A stretch of DNA of 64,000 bases from Flavobacteriaceae bacterium YJPT1-3 (GTDB lineage Bacteria; Bacteroidota; Bacteroidia; Flavobacteriales; Flavobacteriaceae), in assembly GCA_029866965.1 (NCBI GenBank), contig CP123444.1, positions 1,839,501-1,903,500 of the forward strand, read 5' to 3'. Under the pieces are notes generated by a model. That model was not told the origin of the DNA, did no database searches, and saw only the letters and a program-made list of their open reading frames with translations. The stretch's first letter is position 1; every line of letters begins with the position of its first letter. Positions 51,075 through 58,571 of the stretch are shown in pieces. The position numbers were made by a program, and so were the translations under genes.

Positions 51075-51165
51075 CAGTATTTTTTAGGATGCTCTAGTCT
51101 AAGTGGAGGCTTACCGCCGAAAACGTTGTCGCAAACTCCATTGAAAAATTCATGCAAACCAACAA

Positions 51166-51190
51166 AAAAACCGCCCTAAAGGCGGTTTTT
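51166..51190 (-). terminator. Intrinsic terminator after the 45-residue gene
   Basis: Minus-strand stem AAAACCGCC / GGCGGTTTT with a 5-nt loop and a T-rich run on both sides. It is 28 nt after the small gene's stop and isolates it from the SulP gene. Confidence 0.85.
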
Positions 51191-51217
51191 AGCTCTTTTT
51201 CAAAGCATTTTTAAGCG

Positions 51218-51355
51218 TTACTCTTTATTTTGTTGCTCTTTGATGGTCTTATCGTCAACATCAAAATCATTGGTATTGATATTGCGTTCTCCGATCTCGC
51301 CTAAAGGCTTATCTTTTTTACTACGTTCTAATTTTTGATCTTCTATCTTTCCCAT
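51218..51355 (-). CDS. 45-residue acidic/basic small protein of unknown function
   Basis: An ATG at 51355 opens a 45-residue frame ending TAA at 51218. The product MGKIEDQKLERSKKDKPLGE continues with IGERNINTNDFDVDDKTIKE and ends QQNKE. It is highly charged, has no Cys, Trp or membrane segment, and may be unstructured. Support for it being real: it fills the gap between trpA and the SulP gene, has a strong terminator right after it, and shows balanced coding-like codons. I recognise no family. No clear promoter box was found upstream, where the DNA is very AT-rich. Confidence 0.65.
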   Translation of the reverse strand: MGKIEDQKLERSKKDKPLGEIGERNINTNDFDVDDKTIKEQQNKE

Positions 51356-51452: not shown

Positions 51453-52214
51453 TTAGCGTATCGTTTTTACAAACTGTTCTACGCTTTCCGCTCCATGTTC
51501 TGTCAGATGTTTAATAAAAGCAGAACCAATGATCGCCCCTTTGGCGTAACGCGTCGCTTTCTGAAAAGTCTCCGCATTGCTGATCCCAAAGCCAACGATC
51601 TGCGGATTATTGAGATCCATTCTGGCGATGCGTTCAAAATAGGTTTGTTGCTCGCCTCCAAATCCGGATTGAGCCCCCGTGGTGCTGGCACTACTCACCA
51701 TATAGATAAACGCATCAGAAGCGGCATCCAGTTGGCGAATACGTGCTTCTGAGGTCTGCGGAGTGATCAAAAATATGAACTTTAGTCCGTGACGTTCAAA
51801 GATCGATTGGTAGTGTTCCTGATACTCGGCCAACGGTAAATCAGGCATAATGATACCGTCTATACCTAGTTGCGCACATTGTTCACAAAAGCGCTCCACG
51901 CCGTATTGAAGCATAGGATTGAAATAGCCCATCACGATCAGCGGAATATGGATGATTTCGCGAATGCCTGCCAACTGATCAAAAAGCTTCTGAGTGCTCA
52001 TCCCGTTCTTTAATGCTTGCGTTGAGCTCTCCTGAATGGTGGGTCCATCGGCCAGGGGGTCACTAAAGGGCAATCCGATTTCTACCATATCGACTCCGCT
52101 CTCCTGGAGTTGTTTTAAGACCGGTACGGTATCTTCCAACTGGGGATAGCCGGCCGTAAAATAGATAGACAAGAGCTTTTGGTCTTCCGCTAATTTTTGA
52201 TTGATTCGGTTCAT
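51453..52214 (-). CDS. trpA: Tryptophan synthase alpha chain
   Basis: It cleaves indole-3-glycerol phosphate to indole, passed to TrpB. The 253-residue barrel has VDMVEIGLPFSDPLADGPTI with the catalytic Glu and Asp, IPLIVMGYFNPMLQYG, and QIVGFGISNAETFQKAT near the phosphate site. It is the last gene of the trp operon, 1 nt after trpB. No terminator hairpin is obvious after it. Confidence 0.96.
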   Translation of the reverse strand: MNRINQKLAEDQKLLSIYFTAGYPQLEDTVPVLKQLQESGVDMVEIGLPFSDPLADGPTIQESSTQALKNGMSTQKLFDQLAGIREIIHIPLIVMGYFNPMLQYGVERFCEQCAQLGIDGIIMPDLPLAEYQEHYQSIFERHGLKFIFLITPQTSEARIRQLDAASDAFIYMVSSASTTGAQSGFGGEQQTYFERIARMDLNNPQIVGFGISNAETFQKATRYAKGAIIGSAFIKHLTEHGAESVEQFVKTIR

Positions 52215-52215
52215 C

Positions 52216-53412
52216 TTATAAGTTAAAGTAATCGATATACGTATTTAGATCTTTGTCGCCACGTCCCGAGAGGTTGATCACCACCACCTCGTCCGCCTCA
52301 AATTTTCGGTCTTCAAAAATGGCCAACGCATGGCTGGTCTCGATCGCGGGAATGATCCCTTCCAGTTTACTGAGCATCAATCCGGCTTGCATGGCCGCTA
52401 CATCAGTAATGGAAATAAACTCCCCCCGACCGCTTCTGAATAAATGGGCATGCATGGGTCCAACGCCCGGGTAATCCAGTCCGGCAGAGATGGAATAAGG
52501 CTCTGTGATTTGTCCGTCTTCCGTTTGCATCAACAGCGTTTTGCTGCCATGAATGATCCCTTCCTTGCCCAGGGCAGAGGTAGCGGCGCTTTCACCGGTA
52601 GCGATGCCCTTTCCGGCCGCTTCTACGGCGATGATGCCTACTTCAGGCTGATCTAAAAAGTGATAGTAGAGTCCGGCAGCATTACTGCCCCCGCCTACAC
52701 AGGCCACCACATAATCCGGATTCTCCCGTCCTTCTACCTCAAGCAATTGCTTTTTGGTTTCAGCAGAGATGACGGCCTGGAAACGGGCCACCATATCCGG
52801 GTAGGGATGTGGGCCCACTACAGAACCAATAATGTAATGGGTGTCGACCGGATTATTGATCCAGTCGCGTATGGCTTCATTGGTCGCATCTTTGAGCGTT
52901 CGACTACCGGACATGGCCGGGCGCACGGTGGCCCCCAGCATTTTCATGCGGGCCACATTGGGAGCCTGGCGTTCAATATCGACAGCACCCATATAGACCA
53001 CGCATTCCATGCCCATAAGCGCGCAGACTGTGGCTGTCGCCACTCCATGTTGACCGGCACCGGTCTCCGCAATGATCCGATTTTTTCCCAACTTCTTGGC
53101 CATCAAGATCTGACCAATGGTGTTATTAACTTTATGCGCTCCCGTATGGCAAAGGTCTTCCCGTTTGAGGTAGATCTTTGTGCCGTATTTTTCACTCATC
53201 CGTTTTGCAAAATAGAGCGGGGTAGGCCTACCTACATAGTCCTTCAGTAGGGCTTGAAATTCTTTTTGAAAAGAATCGCTCTCCATGATGTCGATGTACT
53301 GCGTTCGCAATTCCTCCACATTGGGATACAACATCTCCGGGATATAGGCACCTCCAAAATCGCCGTAATAACCGCGATCGTCGGCTTGATAAGAAAGGGT
53401 TTTAGTACTCAT
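52216..53412 (-). CDS. trpB: Tryptophan synthase beta chain
   Basis: The PLP enzyme joins indole and serine to tryptophan. The 398-residue protein has [17 protein letters not shown], the PLP lysine in [15 protein letters not shown] near residue 90, [19 protein letters not shown], and the phosphate loop [15 protein letters not shown]. It overlaps trpF by 11 nt. It is the standard long-form TrpB1. Confidence 0.97.
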
Positions 53413-54040
53413 GTTCTCGTTCTTTTAATTTTTTTTGAAAGTTTTTTAGGGGTTCTATCGCTTTAAGACCGGGCGCCGATTCAAAGCGGCTGTTCACATC
53501 GATGACGGCGATGGGAAGCTCGGAGGCTAAAAGATCTTCAATGGCCGGCCATTGTTCCAGTCCGATCCCACCGCTCAACACAATAGGGGTAGTGGAGCTG
53601 TAGCCTCGCAGGACGCTCCAGTCAAATACTAGACCAGTACCCCCCGGTTGCTGTCCCTTGGTGTCGAATAAAAAAGCATCGACCAGGCCTTCATAAGGCT
53701 GTAGCCGATCGAAATCAAATTGATCGCGGATGGAAAAGACTTTCCAAATCTGAATATCTTCCGGGAGTTGCTGCCGAAGGCCTTGAACGAAATCCGCTGA
53801 TTCCGCTCCGTGTAATTGAATGACATGGAGGTTCAGGGACGTGTATTGGTCAAGAATGAATGCTGGGCTGGCATCTACAAAAACACCTACCCGTTGAATA
53901 CCGTCCGGAAGTGCAGGTAGGGATCGGGTGAAATTACGGGGAGACTTCTCATAAAAAATAAAACCCAGATAATCCGGACGCAAGGAAGCAACCTCCACTA
54001 CATTCTCACCCATTCCGCATATTTTGAGTTTTGGAATCAC
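53402..54040 (-). CDS. trpF: Phosphoribosylanthranilate isomerase
   Basis: It isomerises phosphoribosylanthranilate for the indole-glycerol phosphate synthase step. At 212 residues the barrel starts [20 protein letters not shown] with the catalytic Cys, has [44 protein letters not shown] with the catalytic Asp, and [12 protein letters not shown]. It overlaps trpC by 4 nt and trpB by 11 nt. Confidence 0.94.
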
Positions 54041-54831
54041 GCCGAAGTCATATCAAGTTGTTGAATGAACGTTTGGGCTGCTGCTCCCGGGTCCTCTGTT
54101 TTCATAAAATTCTCACCGATCAAAAATCCTTGATATCCGTAGCCTTGCAATTCTTGAATCGCCTGTACGGAGCTGATTCCACTTTCGGAAACCTTGACGA
54201 AGTCATCCGGTATTTGTTCAGCCAGACTTTTACTGATGTCCAGGCTCACTTCAAAGGTTTTTAGGTTTCTATTATTCACGCCCAGCATATCGACAGCGGG
54301 AATTTTACTTTTTTCAAGCTCTTCTTGATTGTGCACTTCGCAGAGCACATCCAGACCAAGCCGCATGGCAAACTCAGCGTATTCTTTGATCTGCTTTCGC
54401 GAAAGCGTGGCCGCGATTAAGAGGATCACATCGGCTCCGTAGGCTTTGGCTTCCAGAATTTGATAGGGGTCTACAATAAAGTCCTTGCGCAATAAGGGTA
54501 GACCACAGGCTGCCCGAGCCAGCAGGAGGTCATCCAGAGCACCTCCAAAATATTTGACATCGGTCAATACGGACATGCCAGACACTCCGGCCTGTTCGTA
54601 ACCACTGGCCACGTCCTGAACATTGAGTTTTTGATTGATGACTGCTTTGCTGGGGGAACGGCGCTTGTGTTCTGCGATGATTCCCGTATTGGAGCCACGG
54701 AGCAGGCCAGCCAAAGATGGGGATTCCCGATCGCAGAGCATCGACTGATCCAGCTGCGTCATGGGAATGAGCGATTTGCGCAATTCCACTTCCTTGATTT
54801 TATCGGCTACTATAGTGTCGAGTATGTTCAT
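54037..54831 (-). CDS. trpC: Indole-3-glycerol phosphate synthase
   Basis: It closes the indole ring. The 264-residue barrel has IIAEHKRRSPSKAVINQ with the catalytic Lys and phosphate contacts, SVLTDVKYFGGALDDLLLAR, LPLLRKDFIVDPYQILEAKA with catalytic Lys, ADVILLIAATLSRK, and MLGVNNRNLKTFEVSL. It is monofunctional, with trpF separate. It starts inside the trpD 3' end by 4 nt. An exact palindrome copy (LSRK) sits after the ILLIAA strand. Confidence 0.96.
   Translation of the reverse strand: MNILDTIVADKIKEVELRKSLIPMTQLDQSMLCDRESPSLAGLLRGSNTGIIAEHKRRSPSKAVINQKLNVQDVASGYEQAGVSGMSVLTDVKYFGGALDDLLLARAACGLPLLRKDFIVDPYQILEAKAYGADVILLIAATLSRKQIKEYAEFAMRLGLDVLCEVHNQEELEKSKIPAVDMLGVNNRNLKTFEVSLDISKSLAEQIPDDFVKVSESGISSVQAIQELQGYGYQGFLIGENFMKTEDPGAAAQTFIQQLDMTSA
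54393..54406. repeat. Palindrome copy in trpC
   Basis: GCTTTCGCGAAAGC, exact, read as LSRKQ. Confidence 0.9.
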
Positions 54832-55850
54832 GAGGCCTGCAATTTACTGAGCTTTTGTAAGGTATTCAGGGCTTGAAGTGCTTTCCCTTGCTGCAGCGAT
54901 CGCTGCGCTTTTTGAAACCCTTGCTGCACATTGCATCCGGTGGCCGTGGCGATGGCCATGCCCGCATTCGCGCAAACCACATGTTCTTGGGCTTCACTCC
55001 CTTCACCGCGAATCACTTGCATAAAGATCTGAGCCGCTTCTTCCACGGTCTCCCCCCCGTAAATTTGATCCTGACGGATGGTTGATACACCGAAATCTTT
55101 CGGATGGAGCATGGCTTCCCGCTGATTGGAGATGGTCTTGGTAGCACCGGTAAGCGAGATTTCGTCGTAACCGTCCAAAGCATGCAAAATGGTAAAATTC
55201 TTATCTCCCTTTTGATAGAGATAGCCGTACATGCGCGCCAATTCGAGATTGAACACGCCGACCAATTGATTTTTCGGAAAAGCCGGATTGACCATAGGTC
55301 CAAGCATATTGAAAAAGGTCTTGACTCCCAGTTCTCTTCTGATGGGTCCCACATTCTTCATGGCCGGATGGAAGAGTGGAGCATGTAAGACACAGATTCC
55401 GCTTTCCGCGATACAGCGTTCCAAGAAATCAGCCTCATTGCTGAAGCGTACGCCCAGGTGTTCCAGAACATTGCTGCTTCCACTTACCGAGGATACCCCA
55501 TAGTTACCGTGTTTGGCTACCGGGACGCCGGCCCCGGCGGTGATGAAGCTGGCCAGGGTAGAGACGTTAAAGGTATTTTTCCCGTCCCCACCGGTACCAC
55601 AGAGATCAATGGGTTGGTAGGAGGAGAGATTGACCGAAATGCAGAGATCAAGCAAGGCGTCGCGAAAGCCCTCTAACTCTTCTACCGTAATGCTCCGCAT
55701 CATGTATACGGTCAGGAATGAAGCGATCTGACTGGCGTTGTATTGGCCTTCAGAAATATTGACCAAGATGCTTCGGGCTTCCTGCTTATCGAGTATTTCG
55801 TGATTGATCAGACGATTGAGAATTTCTTTCATGCTTAAGCGCTTATCCAA
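54828..55850 (-). CDS. trpD: Anthranilate phosphoribosyltransferase
   Basis: It transfers phosphoribose from PRPP to anthranilate. The 340 residues include IDLCGTGGDGKNTFNVSTLA (PRPP loop), GVPVAKHGNYGVSSVSGSSN, and the anthranilate-binding segment FHPAMKNVGPIRRELGVKTF. It is monofunctional, separate from trpG. The start overlaps trpG's 3' end by 16 nt. Confidence 0.96.
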   Translation of the reverse strand: MDKRLSMKEILNRLINHEILDKQEARSILVNISEGQYNASQIASFLTVYMMRSITVEELEGFRDALLDLCISVNLSSYQPIDLCGTGGDGKNTFNVSTLASFITAGAGVPVAKHGNYGVSSVSGSSNVLEHLGVRFSNEADFLERCIAESGICVLHAPLFHPAMKNVGPIRRELGVKTFFNMLGPMVNPAFPKNQLVGVFNLELARMYGYLYQKGDKNFTILHALDGYDEISLTGATKTISNQREAMLHPKDFGVSTIRQDQIYGGETVEEAAQIFMQVIRGEGSEAQEHVVCANAGMAIATATGCNVQQGFQKAQRSLQQGKALQALNTLQKLSKLQAS

Positions 55851-56419
55851 TTTTTTAACATGGTTTTTCCATCAGGAGTGAGCACAGATTCCGGGTGGAA
55901 CTGAACCCCACGTACGTCGTATTCTTTGTGACGAAGGGCCATGATCTGGCCGGATTCGTCTACAGCCGTCACTTCCAATGATTCCGGAAATCCTTCCGGA
56001 TCGACCACCCAGGAGTGATAGCGCCCAACCGCTACAGTTTCCTGCAGTCCTTCGAAAAGGGATGGGTCATTTTGGGTGATGCGAATGTTGGTGGCCACCC
56101 CGTGAAATACTTCTGTGAGGTTGATCAATGACCCGCCATAAACCTCACCTATGGCTTGTTGCCCGAGGCATACGCCCAAAATGGACTTCTCCTTGCCGTA
56201 GCGTTCGATGATGGGCTTGAGTAATCCGGCTTCTTCAGGAATACCCGGCCCCGGGGATAGTAAAATTTTATCGTAGGCGGCAACCTCGTCCAGCTGGAGC
56301 TGATCATTGCGTTTAACGGTCACTTCACAATTTAATTCTTCGAGATAATGCACCAGGTTGTAGACAAAACTGTCGTAGTTGTCGATCACCAGGACTTTTA
56401 TTCTTTGATCGGTTTTCAT
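55835..56419 (-). CDS. trpG: Anthranilate synthase glutaminase subunit
   Basis: It supplies ammonia to TrpE. This 194-residue class I glutaminase has LVIDNYDSFVYNLVHYL, LLSPGPGIPEEAG, the nucleophile in SILGVCLGQQAIGEVYGG near residue 80, and the His-Glu pair in VRGVQFHPESVLTP. It overlaps trpE by 4 nt and trpD by 16 nt. The family also serves as PabA; here the operon points to tryptophan. Confidence 0.95.
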   Translation of the reverse strand: MKTDQRIKVLVIDNYDSFVYNLVHYLEELNCEVTVKRNDQLQLDEVAAYDKILLSPGPGIPEEAGLLKPIIERYGKEKSILGVCLGQQAIGEVYGGSLINLTEVFHGVATNIRITQNDPSLFEGLQETVAVGRYHSWVVDPEGFPESLEVTAVDESGQIMALRHKEYDVRGVQFHPESVLTPDGKTMLKNWISA

Positions 56420-57813
56420 AAGGCTTCGGCCAGTTCCAGGGCTTTGGTCAAGGCGCCCAATTTGTTATATACTTCTTGTAATTCTTTTTCAGGTTCGCTA
56501 TCGGTAACGATGCCCGCGCCGGCCTGATAATGCAACTGATGATCTTTACTCAAAAAGGAGCGGATGATGATGGCGTGATTGAAGTTGCCGGTAAAATCCA
56601 TAAAACCGATGGCCCCTCCGTAAAAATCCCGATTCACCGTTTCATACTGCTCCAGCAGCTGCATCGCACGATGCTTAGGAGCCCCACTAAGAGTGCCTGC
56701 CGGAAAGGTATCGGCCACCACCTGCATGGTGGGTGTTTTGGCGTGCTTTTTAGCCGTGACTTTACTGACCAGATGAATCACATGGGAAAAAAATTGTACC
56801 TCCCGATAGGTTTCTACAGTGACTTCGCTTCCGTGTCTGGAGAGGTCATTACGGGCCAGATCGACCAGCATGACGTGCTCACTATTCTCCTTAGGATCGG
56901 CGCTGAGTTGTTTGGCCAATGATGCGTCCTGCTCATCGTTACCCGTGCGTTTAAAGGTGCCTGCAATGGGATGAATTTCTGCTCGTCCTTCTTTCACGAT
57001 CAGTTGAGCTTCCGGTGAACTTCCAAAAATTTTAAAATTACCGTAGTCAAAGTAGAAGAGGTACGGGGAAGGGTTTACACTGCGCAGGGCCCGGTAGACA
57101 TTGAATTCATCTCCGGTAAAATGTTGCGAGAAACGCTTGCTGGGTACGATCTGAAAGACGTCGCCCCTTTGGCAATGCTTTTTACATTGCTCCACCAGCT
57201 CTTTAAAGTCGTCGTCAGAAAGATTACTACTGGGCTCACCTTTGCGCTGGAAATTGTATTCCGCAAAATTCTTGGTGGCTAAGATCTGTTCCAATTGGGG
57301 GAGATTATTGTCTCCGGTGGTATTGTGACAAAAGAGGTGTACTTCATTATTAAAATGATTGAAGGCGATCACATTTTGATATACAGCATAATACAAATCG
57401 GGGATCTGCAAATCACCGTCCTTTTTAGTGAGCTCAATGGCCTCAAAATAGCGTACGGCATCGTAAGCCATATAGCCAAAGAGTCCGTTGTTGACAAAGC
57501 GATGGGTCTGAGATTCCGAAGTGAACGCTTTCGCGAAAGCGTCTAAAACAGAAGGAACATCTGTAGTTTCCGTGATCGTGATGGTCTCTGTCTTTCCATC
57601 GGGAAACTGCTGTACGATCTGCTCATTAGCGACCTGAATGCTGGCAATTGGATTGCAGCAGAGGTAGCTGAAGGTATTATCGTTAGCTCGGTAGTCACTA
57701 CTTTCGAGCAATAGGCTGTTCGGGAATTTATCCCTTAAGCGCAGATAGACCGACACCGGAGTGATGGTATCGGCAAGCAGGCGTTTGTGATGTGTTTTTA
57801 ATACGTACTGCAT
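56416..57813 (-). CDS. trpE: Anthranilate synthase component I
   Basis: It makes anthranilate from chorismate. At 465 residues it has the N-terminal regulatory part with LLLESSDYR, where the LLES segment marks the tryptophan-feedback site. The chorismate-binding half follows: CQRGDVFQIVPSKRFSQHF, PSPYLFYFDYGNFKIFGSSPE, HPIAGTFKRTGNDEQD, DLARNDLSRHGS, and FPAGTLSGAPKHRAMQLL. It is first in the trp operon and read through the attenuator described at 57836-57868. A palindrome copy gives AFAKA near residue 92. Confidence 0.97.
   Translation of the reverse strand: MQYVLKTHHKRLLADTITPVSVYLRLRDKFPNSLLLESSDYRANDNTFSYLCCNPIASIQVANEQIVQQFPDGKTETITITETTDVPSVLDAFAKAFTSESQTHRFVNNGLFGYMAYDAVRYFEAIELTKKDGDLQIPDLYYAVYQNVIAFNHFNNEVHLFCHNTTGDNNLPQLEQILATKNFAEYNFQRKGEPSSNLSDDDFKELVEQCKKHCQRGDVFQIVPSKRFSQHFTGDEFNVYRALRSVNPSPYLFYFDYGNFKIFGSSPEAQLIVKEGRAEIHPIAGTFKRTGNDEQDASLAKQLSADPKENSEHVMLVDLARNDLSRHGSEVTVETYREVQFFSHVIHLVSKVTAKKHAKTPTMQVVADTFPAGTLSGAPKHRAMQLLEQYETVNRDFYGGAIGFMDFTGNFNHAIIIRSFLSKDHQLHYQAGAGIVTDSEPEKELQEVYNKLGALTKALELAEAL
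57525..57542. repeat. Palindrome copy in trpE
   Basis: ACGCTTTCGCGAAAGCGT, exact 18 bp, read as AFAKA. Confidence 0.9.
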
Positions 57814-57835: not shown

Positions 57836-57868
57836 GAAAAAGGCTTGTCGTGAAGACAAGCCTTTTTT
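57836..57868 (-). terminator. trp attenuator terminator
   Basis: Minus-strand stem AAAAAGGCTTGTC (57867-57855), loop TTCAC, arm GACAAGCCTTTTT (57849-57837) followed by CTTTTT. It is a strong intrinsic terminator placed before trpE, 25 nt after the leader peptide stop. Its loop and the start of its second arm (TTCACGAC, 57854-57847) are the exact complement of GTCGTGAA at 57900-57893, the leader's stop-codon region. Confidence 0.85.
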
Positions 57869-57893
57869 CATATGTTGAATACAAGGGGTCAGT

Positions 57894-57950
57894 TCACGAC
57901 GTTTGACGTTGTGTACTCCACCACCAGGTATTTTTGTTTCCATTACTCAT
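57894..57950 (-). CDS. trpL: trp leader peptide with three consecutive Trp codons
   Basis: An 18-residue frame MSNGNKNTWWWSTQRQTS ends in TGA at 57896-57894. The three TGG codons lie at 57926-57918. A terminator hairpin follows and then trpE. The stop-codon region GTCGTGAA (57900-57893) can pair over 8 bp with the terminator loop and second arm. Expected working: with ample Trp-tRNA the ribosome reaches the stop and covers this strand, so the terminator forms. When it stalls on the Trp codons the strand is free and can block the terminator. This is the classical ribosome-mediated logic, inferred here from sequence only. Confidence 0.8.
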   Translation of the reverse strand: MSNGNKNTWWWSTQRQTS

Positions 57951-57957
57951 TGGAGTT

Positions 57958-57965
57958 CAAATATA
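57958..57965 (-). promoter_or_regulatory. Putative -7 box of the trp operon
   Basis: TATATTTG on the minus strand, ending 7 nt before the trpL ATG, so transcription would begin about 3-5 nt before the leader peptide. A -33 TTTG is not clear. Confidence 0.5.
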
Positions 57966-58001
57966 GGAACGATTTTTAAGTTGCGGAAACATTTCCAGGA
58001 A

Positions 58002-58571
58002 TTATTGAAATTTTAGGTTGACGGTCAATTCGAAGTCATCATAGATGGTGTTATCCCCTAAGTTATCGAAGAAACTTCCTGACCCATAGCGTACATTGAA
58101 TTTGGTACGATCTACTTCGAAAGCAGCAGTAGCAGTGTTCCCGTTCATATTCAATTCAAAGGCGATAGGTTCTGTAGTCCCCTTAATGGTTAGCTCCCCA
58201 TTGACGTAATAGCCGTTATCCGTCTTTGTACCATTTTTGATGACCAGCGTAGCGGTGGGGTGATTGGCAATACCAAAGAAATCATCAGAGGTCAAATGGC
58301 CTTCTAATTTAGCTTTACTGTCTCCTTTTAGGTCAGTCACTTCGAGGGAAGTCATGTCGACGACAAATTTTCCGCCGGTGATCTGATCGCCTTCCATCTC
58401 GAGATAGCCTTCAGAGAACTGAAGGGTACCCGTGTGCTTTCCGGTAATTTTTTTTCCAACCCAGTCAATCTGACTGGCTGAGGTGTCAATGGTCTTTTTC
58501 ATAGTTGTGGTGAATGAGGCAGTGGCCAGTGCCAGTGCCAGGATGAATACTGATTTAATTGTTGTTTTCAT
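58002..58571 (-). CDS. YceI family periplasmic lipid-binding protein
   Basis: The 189-residue protein has an N-terminal signal peptide (SVFILALALATASFTTT) and the YceI lipocalin-like barrel: TIDTSASQIDWVGKKITGKH, GKFVVDMTSLEVTDLKGD, DDFFGIANHPTATLVI, LTIKGTTEPIAF. YceI proteins bind polyisoprenoids in the periplasm and are often induced by stress. It is convergent in orientation with nothing; the upstream MarR gene lies on the same strand. A palindromic site at 58591-58602, 19 nt before its ATG, matches the one before the MarR gene. Confidence 0.93.
   Translation of the reverse strand: MKTTIKSVFILALALATASFTTTMKKTIDTSASQIDWVGKKITGKHTGTLQFSEGYLEMEGDQITGGKFVVDMTSLEVTDLKGDSKAKLEGHLTSDDFFGIANHPTATLVIKNGTKTDNGYYVNGELTIKGTTEPIAFELNMNGNTATAAFEVDRTKFNVRYGSGSFFDNLGDNTIYDDFELTVNLKFQ

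Follow-up and report, generated by a model that had tools for sequence, protein, structure and literature searches.

The window analysed here, a stretch of 64,000 nucleotides from the single-contig 3.16 Mb genome of Flavobacteriaceae bacterium YJPT1-3, carries on its minus strand a seven-gene tryptophan operon in the order trpEGDCFBA. The operon and the region in front of trpE contain the following features, given with the evidence for each.

57958-57965, minus strand: -7 box TATATTTG, which fits the Bacteroidetes motif TAnnTTTG; the leader ATG lies 7 nt past its end
57894-57950, minus strand: leader ORF MSNGNKNTWWWSTQRQTS of 18 codons plus a TGA stop (sequence; conserved in relatives)
57918-57926, minus strand: three TGG (Trp) codons, at which the ribosome is proposed to stall (sequence; TGG runs in relatives)
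57893-57900, minus strand: putative antiterminator strand GTCGTGAA, which holds the leader stop (complementarity and conservation)
57883-57890, minus strand: GAC and CCTT after the stop, which may lengthen the antiterminator by pairing with the terminator 5′ arm (forced-antiterminator fold; suggestive only in relatives)
57878-57932, minus strand: predicted protector hairpin, in which the Trp-codon region and the antiterminator strand fold on themselves (folding; compare the RF01692 structure line)
57855-57972, minus strand: match to the Rfam covariance model RF01692 (Bacteroid-trp), 54.6 bits (cut-off 49)
57837-57867, minus strand: intrinsic terminator AAAAAGGCTTGTC-ttcac-GACAAGCCTTTTT, 13 bp, with T-rich sequence after it (sequence, folding, alignment)
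57847-57854, minus strand: putative antiterminator target TTCACGAC, i.e., the terminator loop and the first 3 nt of the 3′ arm (complementarity)
56416-57813, minus strand: trpE, the first gene of the operon, with its ATG at 57813
51453-56419, minus strand: trpG, trpD, trpC, trpF, trpB and trpA, in this order

On a minus-strand reading, the 18-codon leader, the three TGG codons at 57926-57918 and the terminator coordinates given by the initial annotation are correct, and the -7-like box that it reported corresponds to TATATTTG at 57965-57958, in agreement with TAnnTTTG, the -7 consensus of Bacteroidetes as given in PMC9723704. The leader begins with an ATG at 57950 and ends with a TGA at 57896-57894, while the terminator consists of a 5′ arm (57867-57855), a TTCAC loop (57854-57850) and a 3′ arm (57849-57837), with 23 nt between its stem and the trpE start. 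The eight-base strand containing the leader stop, GTCGTGAA (57900-57893), pairs perfectly with TTCACGAC (57854-57847), being, as had been pointed out, the exact complement of the loop and the beginning of the second arm. The region shows codons for the amino acid made by the operon within a short leader ORF (WWW, 18 codons) and an intrinsic terminator ahead of the first structural gene. Footprint geometry and conservation further point to an antiterminator that would exclude the terminator and for which a stalled ribosome and finished translation would have opposite effects, the terminator being the winner at equilibrium.

The attenuator belongs to a catalogued RNA family, Rfam RF01692 (Bacteroid-trp). 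It scores 54.6 bits against the curated cut-off of 49 with model positions 1-131 of 131 aligned, and the genomic context of the family, i.e., a location before trp genes of Bacteroidetes, is found here in that a complete operon follows. As in the family, the Trp codons lie in a short ORF before trpE of a Bacteroidetes genome, and the 3′ end of the model, matched over its full length, is the 5′ arm of the terminator. In contrast, the printed model stops at GGCUUGUC and excludes the terminator loop and the 3′ arm that hold the putative antiterminator target, and several of its pairs are non-standard in this sequence. The Bacteroid-trp RNA appears in the printed list of Weinberg et al. (2010; PMC2864571), and a 2019 paper on F. 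psychrophilum places a Bacteroid-trp element ahead of the trp operon of that species (PMC6414381). In 2010 leader-peptide systems were described as known only in Proteobacteria and Actinobacteria, with the exception of ermC (PMC2965389), and leader-peptide-like short ORFs are reported for Bacteroides thetaiotaomicron (PMC7366714). In their transcriptome study of F. psychrophilum, a species that probably belongs to this bacterial family too, Guerin et al. (2021; PMC9723704) describe strong clues, from which they propose that amino-acid operons are preceded by attenuators of the leader-peptide type; section 19 of that paper contains no strand-level mechanism for trp. Passages from the open-licence literature, those of PMC4833913 included and supplements being outside its scope, yielded neither a strand-level account of the Bacteroid-trp antiterminator nor an attenuation experiment in these bacteria.

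The E. coli trp attenuator (trpL; RF00513) is built from a Trp-codon leader and a protector, antiterminator and terminator logic, and the element described here shares both. It differs from trpL in that the stop codon lies inside the antiterminator strand, the 8-nt core would pair with the terminator loop plus the upper part of its 3′ arm and not with the 5′ arm, and the leader starts very near the -7 box. No match of RF00513 to the leader was obtained; its sole row in the window lies at 51161-51266, below the cut-off. At 51161-51266, about 190-290 nt past trpA, five sub-cut-off Rfam rows overlap, and this stretch is possibly a strong hairpin such as an operon terminator.

Folding of the leader RNA gave a z-score of -4.47, with none of 200 shuffles equally stable. 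In the free leader RNA, the protector hairpin together with the terminator (-36.0 kcal/mol) is predicted to be favored over the forced antiterminator (-23.9 kcal/mol). When the first Trp codon was treated as occupied by a ribosome, in a fold series that disregards RNA enclosed in the polymerase, the antiterminated fold was the most stable for RNA ends from the last base of the target through the 3′-arm GCC; with longer RNA the growing terminator overtakes it, finally by 4.6 kcal/mol. At equilibrium the terminator fold with a ribosome on the first, second or third Trp codon reaches -23.1, -21.8 or -20.8 kcal/mol, compared with an antiterminated fold at -18.5 kcal/mol, the margin on the second and third codons being 3.3 and 2.3 kcal/mol. 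Since the terminator is favored at equilibrium, the switch would need to be decided during transcription, by kinetic capture or pausing. In the antiterminated fold the post-stop GAC and CCTT are additionally paired with bases of the terminator 5′ arm. The pairing of a 47-nt stretch with the terminator was only modestly above chance in this single sequence (p ~0.02, 300 dinucleotide shuffles), and it becomes convincing because it is conserved.

Conservation was assessed in 81 trpE upstream regions, namely our own and those of the best 80 of 590 TrpE relatives, a set that leans to close relatives; among these best 80, the top TrpE identities (76-77%) belong to Leeuwenhoekiella, Aequorivita and Aureisphaera records, genera that we take to be Flavobacteriaceae. 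With the pairing search limited to stretches touching the terminator loop, a Trp-codon leader (TGGTGG), a loop-complementary strand and a terminator were all present in 77 of the 81 loci. The four remaining loci comprise three with short upstream sequence (L020, L076 and L092) and one, L026, without a leader. L026 is alone among these 80 relatives in having a full upstream stretch and yet no TGGTGG leader; within the 450 nt before its trpE lies an ORF that by eye looks like one for a GIY-YIG nuclease, as though the attenuator had been pushed aside by an insertion.

The TGG run has three codons in 73 of the 77 loci and two in the other four, and CGTGA is found in every one of the 77, 25-30 nt from the start of the TGG run and at 28 nt in 61 of them. 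A lack of conservation of the Trp codons or paired strands, named beforehand as one of two outcomes that would speak against an attenuator, was thus not seen. The leader stop, in contrast, ranges from 18 to 36 nt past the Trp codons over the 77 loci while the strand keeps its distance of 25-30 nt: the TGA lies inside the strand in 58, before it in 9 and after it in 10, and in the last group CGTGA is read through as sense codons (..C-GTG-A..). Since CGTGA is kept whether it is a stop, sense codons or post-stop sequence, the comparison suggests that the strand is constrained as RNA rather than as peptide, and since the place of the stop varies, the conserved trait is the spacing from the Trp codons and not the overlap with the stop. 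An antiterminator strand that includes the stop codon, which the initial annotation had made part of the design, is consequently the commonest layout but no requirement. The description of the leader as almost leaderless likewise fits this species and part of its relatives: the nearest TAnnTTTG ends 4-9 nt before the leader ATG in 33 of the 77 loci and 11-24 nt before it in 37, and the motif was not found before the leader in 7. The attenuator, whose compact design had been put forward as possibly typical of Flavobacteriia and of uncertain description status, belongs to a family already known as RF01692.

In E. coli, the ribosome footprint extends from -15 to +12 relative to the A-site codon. 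With this footprint, the TCGTGA-type strand would be free at every Trp-codon stall in all 77 loci, whereas a ribosome at the stop would cover six of its six nucleotides in 76 loci and five of six in one.

The seven-pair antiterminator is formed in 94.4% of 538 alignment cells, compared with at most 61.6% after sliding by 1-3 columns; 27 of 76 loci lack the outermost pair and 1 of 77 the one next to it, and two of 77 (L062 and L086) have a broken inner pair. No double-sided change was detected in the antiterminator of these close relatives, and the covariation score was equalled by 341 of 500 shuffles, as strand and target are near-invariant and hardly offer variation from which a signal could arise. 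RNAalifold on the same close-relative alignment recovered the terminator alone, in which 4 of 10 pairs show double-sided changes, and did not recover the protector hairpin. For the extension onto the 5′ arm, the mean z over 74 of the 77 loci (three with an altered loop excluded) was -1.3, with 94.6% of values below 0 and 69% below -1 (60 shuffles each, on sequences that are related to one another). The antiterminator may thus extend past 8 nt via GAC and CCTT on the terminator 5′ arm.

We extended the comparison to the class Bacteroidia. The TrpE family model TIGR00564 hit 159 of the 198 class genomes sampled at E up to 1e-60, and a TrpE call was made at 371 bits or more, a threshold of our own setting, which gave 64 genomes and 63 upstream regions read; G165, whose leader had already been seen as L011, and a second match in G011 were excluded. 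A leader with close Trp codons and a following terminator was present in 44 of the 63 trpE upstream regions and not detected in 19. Within the last 460 nt, to which the controls apply (the count of 44 being based on longer regions), the combination occurred in 40 of 63; the reverse strand gave 0 of 63, and each of 10 shuffles likewise gave none. The loci with leader plus terminator span 23 of the 29 family labels present.

In all, 51 regions with leader and terminator were available, 44 of them from the 63 genomes; dropping 8 that were duplicates or already-counted Flavobacteriaceae left 43 distant loci for the pairing analysis, of which 3 came from RF01692 matches. Here the search was not confined to stretches touching the loop, and L152 gave no pairing, so that positions were counted for 42. 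The results showed that the best pairing strand begins 20-30 nt past the first Trp codon in 33 of these 42 loci, where about 21% would be expected, and in 77 of 77 of the near set; in the other 9 distant loci it lies outside this interval. Taken singly, 23 of the 43 distant loci had a pairing p of 0.05 or less on shuffles and 20 were above. The strand and its target differ by family, as in GAACAGC/GCTGTTC, CGGGGTTCT/AGAACCCCG and GTCGTAAG/CTTGCGGC. For 40 loci from 23 families (L160 swapped for the window, three loci without a family label left out), the mean score of a strand with its cognate terminator was 9.67, compared with 7.16 (sd 0.39) across families, and none of 20,000 permutations reached the cognate mean. 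Base composition shared within a genome could lift cognate scores somewhat. The region used, 20-37 nt past the first Trp codon, was picked after the positions were known and was the same for cognate and permuted pairs; 6 of the 40 loci scored under the mean of other families' terminators. Covariation of strand and target, which the initial annotation had proposed to look for, shows no signal among the near-invariant close relatives and a strong one by permutation between families.

On the target side, 24 of the 40 loci have the 5′ arm, alone or together with the loop, as partner of the strand, 12 have the 3′ arm, alone or together with the loop, and 3 have both; 1 has no target. In L148 and L116 the stop lies 48-51 nt past the first Trp codon, where a ribosome at the stop would overshoot the strand. 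Under strict filters, RF01692 gave a match at E up to 0.001 in 15 of 295 genomes of the class, and 11 of these, including a few from other families, came up to its cut-off; among the loci tested directly, 7 of 20 reached the cut-off and 0 of the 8 from other families. As the score stays below the cut-off at many loci, the family model captures only part of the class-wide attenuators. Taken together, these data would fit an ancestral, Bacteroidia-wide Trp attenuation far larger than RF01692, a joint reading that we consider about equally likely to hold or to fail. Its invariant would be the spacing between Trp codons and strand, about one ribosome footprint, with the strand rewritten together with the terminator family by family. 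The target would not be fixed: for the majority of the Flavobacteriaceae examined, and for some others, it would be the loop with the 3′ arm, and for most of the remaining loci the 5′ arm. The Flavobacteriaceae form would be a kinetic invasion of the terminator loop.

Several other explanations of the region in front of trpE were weighed. A chance origin was rejected on the basis of the fold z-score, the conservation in 77 of 81 loci and the zero counts in the shuffled and reverse-strand controls. The hairpin could instead be the mere terminator of a same-strand YceI-like gene upstream, whose end at 58002 is 134 nt ahead of the hairpin, the W-rich ORF being accidental; however, leader, spacing and complementarity recur together in 77 of 81 loci, shuffled and reverse-strand regions lack the leader plus terminator, and a -7 box stands between the YceI-like gene and the leader, which makes this account highly unlikely. 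A structured leader followed by a terminator ahead of trpE would also be expected of an RNA or protein switch that senses Trp directly (a T-box, a TRAP-like site or a riboswitch). We give such a sensor almost no credence, since no T-box or riboswitch family is among the 12 Rfam rows up to E = 5 and the conserved trait is an in-frame run of Trp codons, for which a translation-free sensor would have no need. It is also conceivable, if improbable, that the leader acts in trans as well, through its peptide or a short terminated RNA that regulates other genes, as reported for peTrpL of S. meliloti (PMC7298713); termination would indeed yield a discrete short RNA, but the residues past WWW vary among relatives.

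The region is thus very probably a ribosome-mediated transcription attenuator of the trp operon, which is also how the initial annotation had read it and which the conservation of leader, strand and terminator in 77 of 81 loci favors. From the parts, their spacing and their conservation, visible in the sequence and its comparison, we infer stalling, a kinetic race and read-through as follows. Transcription would probably start a few bases ahead of the leader ATG, judging from the -7 box. With ample charged tRNA-Trp, the ribosome would reach the stop and hide GTCGTGAA, and the terminator would form. When Trp is scarce, the ribosome would stall at one of the three Trp codons, open the protector hairpin and leave GTCGTGAA free; the free strand would then grab TTCACGAC as it exits the polymerase, before the terminator stem closes, and with TTCACGAC captured the polymerase would continue into trpE. 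If there is no translation, the protector hairpin would keep the strand and the terminator would again form.

Other amino-acid genes of this genome were found to carry leader candidates. A second attenuator candidate lies at hisG (L161), where a leader with three His codons, MRTTNTHHHLLPNAQAR, spans 149 to 95 nt upstream of the profile match; by eye a TAATTTTG box immediately precedes this leader, a terminator follows it, and its strand pairing is weak. A third candidate, the Phe/Tyr-rich MSTTFYFHGSVYFFFYQEETGLL, lies on the reverse strand 170 to 98 nt before the prephenate dehydratase match (L166), where CGGGACTT near the stop complements, with one G-U pair, AAGTCTCG of the following terminator. 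Structured 5′ elements are likewise described at pheA and hisG of F. psychrophilum (PMC9723704), and this genome has candidates at both. In addition, a short Thr/Ile leader-like ORF, MNRYRLLLSVSIFTPLTLGITPLG, lies 132 to 57 nt upstream of an aspartokinase match (L163, a thrA candidate); the scan found no terminator after it. No leader was seen before ilvD of this genome.

The attenuator is ordinary in kind, and what is added here is modest new detail, i.e., the spacing rule, the dispensable overlap with the stop and the wider reach within the class. Translation in these bacteria is described as independent of a Shine-Dalgarno sequence (PMC9723704), and the loci collected here provide a set of attenuators of fixed geometry in bacteria that translate without reliance on it. 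The spacing rule, with CGTGA at 25-30 nt in 77 of 77 loci, is for Bacteroidota a simple ruler of where the ribosome stands with respect to a nascent RNA switch, and it would permit annotation of the family past the current Rfam model.
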